Assembly: GCA_001940895.1 (NCBI GenBank)
Contig: MSGY01000023.1
Span: 62,001-126,000 of the forward strand
Length of the DNA stretch: 64,000 nt
Reading direction: 5' to 3'
Source: Christensenellaceae bacterium Phil10
Lineage (GTDB): Bacteria; Bacillota; Clostridia; Christensenellales; CAG-917
The translations under genes were made by a program, and so were the position numbers. Of this stretch, positions 30,037-58,989 are shown in pieces. Under the pieces are notes generated by a model. It was not told the DNA's origin. It made no database searches and was given only the letters and a program-made list of their open reading frames with translations. Each line of letters begins with the position of its first letter. Position 1 is the first letter of the stretch.

Positions 30037-30065
30037 TTGACAATTTTCAATTGACGACATATTAT
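30037..30065 (+). promoter_or_regulatory. Strong promoter of the oadB leader
   Basis: TTGACA (30037-30042), exactly 17 bp, TATTAT (30060-30065). Predicted start near 30072, giving a leader of about 120 bases before the ATG at 30192. Confidence 0.82.
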
Positions 30066-30071
30066 TATTTT

Positions 30072-30181
30072 AATAGGGAGTAGCCGTCGCCGTGAGGCGA
30101 GATTAAGTCACTATCACGAATTTTTAATTCTGGTTTAATCACAATTGGCAAGACTGTTGATTCAGTCTTGCCGATTTTTTT
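30072..30181 (+). ncRNA. Structured leader RNA (riboswitch candidate) upstream of oadB
   Basis: The leader begins with GGGAGTAG (30076-30083). A hairpin TCGCC-GTGA-GGCGA (30087-30100) follows. GATTAA (30101-30106) can pair with TTAATC (30135-30140), enclosing a hairpin GAATT/AATTC (30118-30130). A full terminator follows (30147-30181). GTCGCC (30086-30091) can pair with GGCAAGAC (30147-30154) with an AA bulge, which would break both the first hairpin and the terminator. This is the logic of a riboswitch. GGGAGTAGC at the 5' end and TTGGCAAGAC at the 3' end recall, from memory, the conserved ends of yybP-ykoY manganese riboswitches. However, the inner ATACT loop is not seen and the target is a sodium pump. 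The class is unassigned. Confidence 0.6.
30147..30181 (+). terminator. Intrinsic terminator inside the oadB leader (attenuator)
   Basis: GGCAAGACTG (30147-30156) and CAGTCTTGCC (30163-30172) form a perfect 10-bp stem with a six-base loop, then GA and seven T residues (30175-30181). AGGAGGA and the oadB ATG follow within ten bases, so it sits between promoter and gene rather than after a gene. Confidence 0.92.
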
Positions 30182-30191
30182 AGGAGGAAAT

Positions 30192-31286
30192 ATGGAATTT
30201 TTGTATGAAACCGTTGCCGCGGTAACCTGGCAACAAATCGTAATGTGGATAATAGGCGCGACGCTTATTTTCCTTGCGATTAAAAAAGATATGGAACCTG
30301 CGCTTTTATTGCCCATGGGATTCGGCGCCATACTTATCAATATTCCTTTTTCGGGCGCGGAAGGCGTTATGAGCAGTCTGTTTAAAATAGGAATCGAGAT
30401 GAACGAAATTATGCCGCTTATTCTGTTTATAGGAATAGGGGCAATGATAGATTTCGGACCGCTTCTTGCAAATCCGAAGTTGTTTCTGTTCGGGGGCGCG
30501 GCGCAATTCGGCATATTTCTGACGATACTGTTGGCGGCGGCGTGCGGTTTCGGAATCGAGGACGCCGCGTCGATAGGTATTATAGGAGCCGCGGACGGGC
30601 CTACCTCGATAGTCGTTGCGCAGACGTTAAACAGCAATTACGTCGGACCGATAATGGTTGTAGCGTATTCGTATATGGCGCTTGTGCCCATAATTCAGCC
30701 TGCCGTGATAAAACTGACGACAACAAAAAAAGAGAGATTGATAAGAATGGATTATAAACCCGGCGCGGTTTCGAAACGTACGAAAATACTTTTTCCCATA
30801 CTCGTTACCGTCGTTTCGGGTCTGATAGCGCCGGCGTCGTTATCGCTTGTCGGTATGCTGATGTTCGGAAATCTGATACGCGAATGCGGAGTGCTCGATT
30901 ATCTCGGCGACACGGCAAAAAACGTGCTTGCAAATCTCGTAACACTGTTTCTCGGCATTACGATAGCGTTTACGATGAAAGCCGAAAATTTCGTTACCGT
31001 GCAGACTCTTATGATAATGGGATTAGGACTTTGCGCTTTCGTTTTCGATACTTTTTCGGGTATAATGCTTGCAAAAGTAATAAATCTGTTTGCAAAACAA
31101 AAGATTAATCCTATGATAGGCGCCGCCGGAATTTCGGCTTTTCCCATGAGCGCGCGTATCGTGCAGAAAATGGGAATAAAAGAGGACCCGACGAATCATC
31201 TGCTGATGCACGCCGTCGGGGCAAACGTCTCGGGACAGATAGCGTCGGCGATTGCGGGCGGACTGATAATCGGGCTCGTAGGGTGA
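30192..31286 (+). CDS. oadB: Sodium ion-translocating decarboxylase subunit beta
   Basis: A 364-residue membrane protein with about nine hydrophobic segments and the family signatures IGAADGPTSIVVAQTL and GAAGISAFPMSARIVQKMG, the sites that carry Na+ during decarboxylation of carboxybiotin. It is the beta subunit of oxaloacetate, methylmalonyl-CoA or glutaconyl-CoA decarboxylase pumps. The carboxyltransferase and biotin-carrier subunits that would decide which are not in this window. The ATG at 30192 follows AGGAGG; an in-frame start at 30168 would lie inside the terminator. A gamma-like gene follows 13 bases later. Confidence 0.95.
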   Translation: MEFLYETVAAVTWQQIVMWIIGATLIFLAIKKDMEPALLLPMGFGAILINIPFSGAEGVMSSLFKIGIEMNEIMPLILFIGIGAMIDFGPLLANPKLFLFGGAAQFGIFLTILLAAACGFGIEDAASIGIIGAADGPTSIVVAQTLNSNYVGPIMVVAYSYMALVPIIQPAVIKLTTTKKERLIRMDYKPGAVSKRTKILFPILVTVVSGLIAPASLSLVGMLMFGNLIRECGVLDYLGDTAKNVLANLVTLFLGITIAFTMKAENFVTVQTLMIMGLGLCAFVFDTFSGIMLAKVINLFAKQKINPMIGAAGISAFPMSARIVQKMGIKEDPTNHLLMHAVGANVSGQIASAIAGGLIIGLVG

Positions 31287-31299
31287 AGGAGGCAACGCT

Positions 31300-31563
31300 A
31301 TGAAATACATTTTTTCAGCAACTTGCGCCGTTAAAGCAAACGTTTTGAAATCACTTGAGATAACGGGATACGGAATGCTTGCGATTTTTATCGTAATCGC
31401 CGTTCTTATACTTCTCGTAAAACTGATGCAGTACTCTGAAAAAATCGCAGAAAAGAGAAAATCTGCCGAAGGTTATAAATCTTTTAAAGAAAGAGCGGCC
31501 GAAAAATCAGAAAAAAAACGCGGGCGGAAAGAAATCGGGGAAAGCGACGACGAAAATAATTGA
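31300..31563 (+). CDS. OadG-like small membrane subunit of a sodium-pumping decarboxylase
   Basis: An 87-residue protein with a single membrane segment (about residues 21-43: LEITGYGMLAIFIVIAVLIL) followed by a highly charged cytoplasmic tail. This is the pattern of decarboxylase gamma subunits, which stabilise the pump. Sequence identity in this family is low, so the call rests on size, topology and position 13 bases after oadB. GAAGGAGG precedes the ATG. Confidence 0.7.
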   Translation: MKYIFSATCAVKANVLKSLEITGYGMLAIFIVIAVLILLVKLMQYSEKIAEKRKSAEGYKSFKERAAEKSEKKRGRKEIGESDDENN

Positions 31564-58449: not shown

Positions 58450-58989
58450 ATGACCACTTTTAAAGGAACTACTATATGCGCCGTTAAGAAAAACGGCATA
58501 ACCGCAATAGCCGGCGACGGACAGGTTACCATGGGCGAAAGCGTGATTTTCAAGGGCAATGCGGTAAAAGTAAAAAGAATTTTCAACGATAAAGTTGTGA
58601 TAGGCTTCGCGGGGTCTGTCAGCGACGCGTTCGCATTGAGCGAAAAATTTGAAGAAATGCTGCAAAAATACAGCGGCAATCTTATGCGCGCCGCGGTAGA
58701 ACTTGCCGAATTGTGGAGAAACGATAAGGCAAGAAAACTGGAAGCGATGATGATTATTGCCGATAAGGACGTAATGCTTATCGTAAGCGGCACGGGCGAG
58801 GTTATCGAGCCCGAGGGAGGAGTTGCCGCGATAGGAAGCGGCGGTAATTACGCATACGCCGCGGCGAGAGCGCTGTATGAAAATACCGAGCTCGGCGCCG
58901 AGGAAATCGTCCGCCGCGCCATGAAAATCGCAAGCGACCTTTGCGTTTACACCAACGACCGTCTTACGGTCGAGGTACTGGAGGCATAA
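58450..58989 (+). CDS. hslV: ATP-dependent protease subunit HslV (ClpQ)
   Basis: A 179-residue proteasome-like peptidase. GTTICAVKKNGITAIAGDGQ, KVKRIFNDKVVIGFAGSVSD and EGGVAAIGSGGNYAYAAARA are diagnostic. Canonical HslV starts its mature chain with the TT of TTI, which here would be Thr7. The N-terminus MTTFKG is a six-residue extension like that of Bacillus ClpQ, so either removal of six residues or use of Thr2 as nucleophile is possible. The hslU ATG begins directly after the stop. Confidence 0.97.
   Translation: MTTFKGTTICAVKKNGITAIAGDGQVTMGESVIFKGNAVKVKRIFNDKVVIGFAGSVSDAFALSEKFEEMLQKYSGNLMRAAVELAELWRNDKARKLEAMMIIADKDVMLIVSGTGEVIEPEGGVAAIGSGGNYAYAAARALYENTELGAEEIVRRAMKIASDLCVYTNDRLTVEVLEA

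Follow-up and report, generated by a model that had tools for sequence, protein, structure and literature searches.

The window, a 64,000-nucleotide stretch of DNA within which all coordinates given here are positions, carries an oadB gene on its + strand (30192–31286); the RNA leader that precedes this gene is hereafter called the window leader. The encoded protein of 364 amino acid residues matched PF03977 (E 1.9e-148) and 6IVA (E 6.9e-92), which bears out the initial annotation of a sodium-pump beta subunit gene and identifies the product as the beta subunit of a Na+-transporting decarboxylase. An alignment with 6IVA showed that D203, N373, G377, S382, and R389 (K. pneumoniae/Salmonella numbering), which we take to be important OadB residues, are kept, and the OadB motifs were present in every window-type relative checked. 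A gene for a small gamma-like subunit of 87 residues follows (31300–31563, + strand; PF04277, E 2.5e-6, just over the cut-off), and oadB otherwise stands alone, with no alpha subunit adjoining. A second, complete set, comprising a carboxyltransferase, gamma, biotin carrier, its own beta, and an OadA-like alpha, is located at C11 and holds the sole PYC_OADA domain found in the 55%-complete assembly. Full decarboxylase operons with two carboxyltransferase kinds (Carboxyl_trans and HMGL-like/PYC_OADA) were observed at G000:C11 and at L210 (4473–9281); in both, the two kinds flank one beta, gamma, and biotin carrier.

Upstream of oadB, a sequence match to a sigma-70-type promoter (TTGACA-17-TATTAT, 30037–30065, + strand) agrees with the consensus at 11 of 12 positions and was the best among 12 found (4.9 expected), which supports its earlier description as a strong promoter. 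Transcription is predicted to start at approximately 30070–30073, where the aptamer described below begins. The intrinsic terminator (30143–30181, + strand) has 14 bp altogether (30143–30176) with a 6-nt loop, followed by a T run, and its core is a perfect 10-bp pairing of GGCAAGACTG with CAGTCTTGCC. By sequence, the ribosome binding site AGGAGG (30182–30187, + strand) follows directly, and the ATG of oadB is at 30192. The terminator and the ribosome binding site had been proposed in the initial annotation and are present as described, as is its conserved-looking 5′ box, GGGAGTAG (30076–30083), whose GGGAGTA columns are invariant in 14 of 14 leaders. The claim that the leader is structured also held: its fold energy was −37 kcal/mol, compared with −22.1 ± 3.2 kcal/mol for shuffled sequence (z −4.7), and the terminator contributes most of this excess over the shuffles.

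All elements of the leader lie on the + strand. The switch helix P1.1 has UUAAUAG (30070–30076) as its 5′ strand, pairs with 30154–30160, and covaries in relatives. It is followed by the L1 loop box, of which the 5′ side, GGAGUA (30077–30082), is invariant and the 3′ side is AAGA (30150–30153); its role is taken from PMC6754395. P1.2 pairs GCCG (30083–30086) with UGGC (30146–30149), as indicated by covariation, and P2 is a UCGCC-GUGA-GGCGA hairpin (30087–30100) found by a covariance model of exporter leaders and by folding. Covariation and folding also support P3.1 (30101–30110 with 30131–30140) and the P3.2 hairpin GAAUU-UUU-AAUUC (30118–30130), between which aligned leaders and PMC6754395 place the metal-site loop L3, CUAUCAC (30111–30117). 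The 3′ strand of P1.2, the AAGA of L1, and the 3′ strand of P1.1 together occupy 30146–30160, and 30146–30156 doubles as part of the 5′ arm of the terminator. The P4 arm is absent: 5 nt separate P3 from P1.2, and the junction is three-way rather than four-way.

Apart from the missing P4, these features are those of the yybP-ykoY class. In the crystallized aptamers, L3 is ACA48UACU (Xanthomonas oryzae) or UCA41AUUC (Lactococcus lactis); its third base is an invariable adenosine whose N7 contacts Mn2+, the other inner-sphere contacts are phosphates, and A10 of L1 docks onto the C–G pair that ends P3.1 (PMC6754395). The window leader contains the L1 box GGGAGUAG/AAGAC with its extruded adenosine and a 7-nt L3 with adenosine in third place (A30113, corresponding to A41 and A48); its A-minor adenosine is A30079, and the receptor pair is C30109–G30132. 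All 152 leaders classified had A as their third L3 base; aptamer relatives among them precede mntP (63), P-type ATPases (46), and CaCA exchangers (16). The second L3 base is U in the window leader and 11 further leaders, not C as in both crystallized aptamers. The inner loop, which the initial annotation had considered unlike yybP-ykoY, is homologous after all, and the likeness that it saw at both ends of the leader was correct.

An Rfam scan at its own cut-offs gave no match for the window leader. In a permissive scan, RF00080 (Manganese) scored 25.9 bits (E 1.6e-5), short of the gathering cut-off of 45 bits, and the best Rfam bit score was that of SSRC10 (RF02617), 33.7 bits. Used as a genome search with strict filters, RF00080 missed the window leader and most relatives. 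Across 100 relatives, the leaders that it found lay before mntP, CaCA exchangers, and P-type ATPases, and each of them scored below the cut-off; no genome of the order among these 100 passed it, mntP and ATPase leaders included. This cut-off is set by curation and does not describe the structure, and a lineage-specific model does accept the window leader. This covariance model, R2, was built from 24 leaders of exporter genes and no oadB leaders; scores from a model that had included the window leader (R1) were left out of the membership evidence. R2 matched the window leader with 53.1 bits (E 1.8e-13), compared with 14.3 bits for the runner-up in the 64 kb (58809–58895, E 0.11), which we took as chance, and it recovered all 20 oadB leaders offered. 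Class membership accordingly has a firmer basis than a general resemblance. The missing P4 is not disqualifying, because a three-way form is accepted for the Streptococcus pneumoniae mgtA riboswitch (PMC9495176).

There is a precedent of another kind for ion riboswitches ahead of genes for Na+-pumping decarboxylases: Na+-I (DUF1646) riboswitches precede genes of oxaloacetate decarboxylase, among them Acetivibrio pycB (PMC9337991). This precedent favors placing the window leader in the Na+-I or the Li+ (nhaA) class, but the architecture is that of yybP-ykoY, and Na+-I is an unrelated RNA to which the window leader shows no match in sequence or structure. The Rfam comparison with Na+-I, nhaA-I, and nhaA-II that the initial annotation had suggested yielded no hit at E values up to 10, even with permissive filters; the sequence refutes this membership, and we regard it as extremely improbable. 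Of the readings left open earlier, a divergent known class or a new one, the known manganese class is the best supported, whereas membership in a Na+ riboswitch class and a new class do not stand. Given that Na+-I is known before such genes, a switch of the Mn2+ type in this place is a real contrast.

Comparison among homologues pointed in the same direction. Inspection of the loci of relatives' oadB genes yielded three further oadB leaders (L005, L013, and L020), and 14 leaders, including that of the window, aligned end to end with GGGAGTA, AGAC, and the third L3 base invariant; the L3 of L005 and L013 was aligned in the register that shares the third A rather than as a deletion. RNAalifold on these 14 leaders found P1.1, P1.2, P3.1, and P3.2, with changes on both sides in 19 of 21 pairs, and 16 oadB leaders gave a covariation of 0.594, compared with 0.249 ± 0.020 when shuffled. 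The initial annotation had named a lack of conservation or covariation in related oadB leaders as a refuting result; both are present. Its antiterminator, GTCGCC with GGCAAGAC, was rejected: in 14 homologues, this pairing forms in just 57% of cells and shows scant covariation, whereas P1.1 and P1.2 around the GGAGUA/AAGA loop are paired in 95% of cells, with a covariation of 0.85 (0.32 ± 0.05 shuffled).

When the RNA was folded without constraints as far as 30160, it formed P1.1, P1.2, P2, and P3, with a difference of 0.1 kcal/mol between the aptamer arrangement and the MFE in P3; on extension to 30170, the terminator displaced P1.1. The 3′ strand of P1.1 sits in the 5′ arm of the terminator in the window leader; an automatic search found this overlap in at least 21 of 24 oadB leaders and chose another hairpin in the remaining three. 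The same layout occurs in L. lactis, where Mn2+ stabilizes P1.1 and permits read-through (PMC11087558). Because P1.1 (30070–30076 with 30154–30160) shares bases with the terminator, the ligand should switch oadB on. An ion, most likely Mn2+, would bind between L1 and L3; the bound ion would hold P1.1 and keep the GGCAAGACUG arm out of the terminator, and oadB would then be transcribed. In the absence of the ion, transcription would end at 30177–30181. The covarying helices, the metal-site nucleotides of L1 and L3, and the overlap of P1.1 with the terminator are read from the sequence itself; the ion-binding and switching steps are what we infer. Taken together, the window leader is very probably a short three-way-junction yybP-ykoY (Mn2+) riboswitch that would induce oadB and the gamma-like gene by antitermination, with Mn2+ as its most likely ligand.

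Compared with the yybP-ykoY riboswitches (RF00080; L. lactis 4Y1I and X. oryzae 6N2V), the window leader shares the L1 box, P1.1/P1.2, P2, P3 with its 7-nt L3 and invariant adenosine, the C–G pair that receives the A-minor contact, the AAGAC 3′ box, and the competition between P1.1 and the terminator. It differs in lacking P4, in having CUAUCAC instead of ACAUACU or UCAAUUC as L3, in controlling oadB rather than an Mn2+ exporter, and in scoring below the Rfam cut-off. The three-way-junction form is shared with the streptococcal mgtA Mn2+/Ca2+ riboswitch and with SSRC10 (RF02617); however, the gene of the former is a P-type Ca2+/Mn2+ ATPase, and the latter is filed in Rfam as an sRNA. SSRC10, which resembles a yybP-ykoY leader, precedes a putative calcium transporter in Streptococcus pyogenes; from this position, it is probably the mgtA riboswitch under another name.

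To our knowledge, oadB is not a known Mn2+ gene, which, like the low Rfam score, the U in L3, and the missing P4, speaks against the manganese class. We describe here how often the pairing recurs, in genomes that are mostly metagenome-assembled and with downstream genes assigned by BLAST against six seed proteins. According to a lineage model, 205 of 396 genomes of the order carry leaders of the class, and window-type OadB is encoded in 124 of the 396. A leader lies directly before oadB in about 19 of these 124, in five families, and a probable twentieth is at a contig end (G135); most window-type oadB genes have no leader. A class-wide sample outside the order added 13 genomes from seven families, so the pairing of an Mn-type leader with oadB, as judged by sequence, is a recurrent one in at least 12 families of Clostridia. 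On the OadB tree, about seven gains or losses of the leader are needed. The rarity of the leader among window-type oadB genes, together with a score far under the Rfam cut-off, could be explained by a plain attenuator or a constitutive leader with a terminator, devoid of a ligand-binding aptamer, in which the likeness to yybP-ykoY has decayed. This is very unlikely, given that the L1 and metal-site bases are retained, that every helix covaries, and that P1.1 and the terminator co-vary across families. One oadB leader outside the order (L232) carries UCAAUUC as its L3, identical to that of L. lactis; this argues for Mn2+ as the general signal for oadB.

The survey also returned several other arrangements. 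At L206 (2260–3522) in G231, genes for a ferritin-like protein and a ZIP metal transporter are found close to the riboswitch-controlled oadB, on the opposite strand. Mn-type leaders precede genes for Band_7/SPFH-domain membrane proteins, an association not known to us, at L164 (L3 UCAGUAC; assigned by Pfam) and at L167 and L187 (UCAAGAC and UCAGGAC; assigned by sequence similarity), and at L190 such a leader (UCAGUAC) precedes a Na+/Pi-cotransporter gene (PF02690). Two Mn-type aptamers at G412:C60 (4834–4924 and 4978–5064) could form a tandem riboswitch, and another pair at L112 (61–150 and 855–945) is separated by about 700 bases.

The L3 sequence of the window leader belongs to a variant, [C/G]UANCAC, that is unevenly distributed among genes. 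Within the order, the second L3 position was C in all 125 leaders before mntP, ATPases, or CaCA exchangers, and the variant occurred in 11 of 19 oadB leaders, including that of the window, compared with 0 of these 125 exporter leaders; a twelfth variant leader is at a contig end. In the order sample, the variant was found only before oadB (Fisher p 8e-12 for the association of L3 with the gene, a figure that ignores shared descent). G298, G331, G118, and other genomes keep an mntP leader with ACAUACU beside a variant oadB leader. A search of the window's own genome found no mntP, which, in an assembly that is 55% complete, is no evidence of absence. When 84,980 species were scanned for the variant, 19 stretches turned up; the independent model confirmed 18 of them, of which 16 precede oadB and 2 precede CaCA exchangers. 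The latter (L216 and L229, from rumen Clostridia) have the oadB-type L3 CUAACAC and are the sole non-oadB carriers found.

This distribution, the coexistence of standard and variant leaders in the same genomes, and the Na+-linked nature of both oadB and the CaCA exchangers raise the alternative that the variant leaders retain the yybP-ykoY fold with a shifted ion preference (Na+, Ca2+, or other) and induce a Na+ pump in response to another signal. The Mn2+-specific adenosine is retained, however, and the inner-sphere contacts besides A41 are phosphates (PMC6754395). The variant leaders also belong to one clade of OadB and represent one change, so that descent by itself can explain the pattern, although selectivity or affinity may have changed. 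Other oadB leaders have UCAAUUC or UCAUCAC, as do accepted Mn2+ switches or exporter leaders. We therefore consider a shifted preference unlikely, and it is similarly doubtful that [C/G]UANCAC marks a distinct subclass of altered selectivity, recruited for a Na+ pump and Na+-coupled exchangers beside a normal Mn2+ switch within one cell.

With Mn2+ as the most likely signal, the recurrence of such a switch before oadB suggests a so far unreported connection of manganese with the control of a sodium pump. On the most economical guess, Na+-coupled exchangers would deal with an excess of Mn2+, and the beta-gamma pair would help to renew the Na+ gradient; alternatively, the pair would serve a metal-dependent decarboxylase. 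This OadB type may also take part directly in Mn2+ export. In the open-access literature, we found no report of a link between Mn riboswitches and oadB or of the L3 variant, although such absence is weak evidence. Few clues to what a poorly understood transporter does are as good as the riboswitch paired with its gene. A manganese switch found repeatedly before stand-alone oadB would mean either that this OadB is involved in manganese stress or that sodium bioenergetics is under manganese control, neither of which we found in the searchable literature. The natural L3 variant, retained in genomes that also have the standard loop, would offer a test of how the Mn2+ site sets selectivity. Finally, Rfam misses the leaders of this order (none over the cut-off in 100 genomes, compared with 205 of 396 by a lineage model), and the manganese regulon of these bacteria would therefore be largely unannotated.
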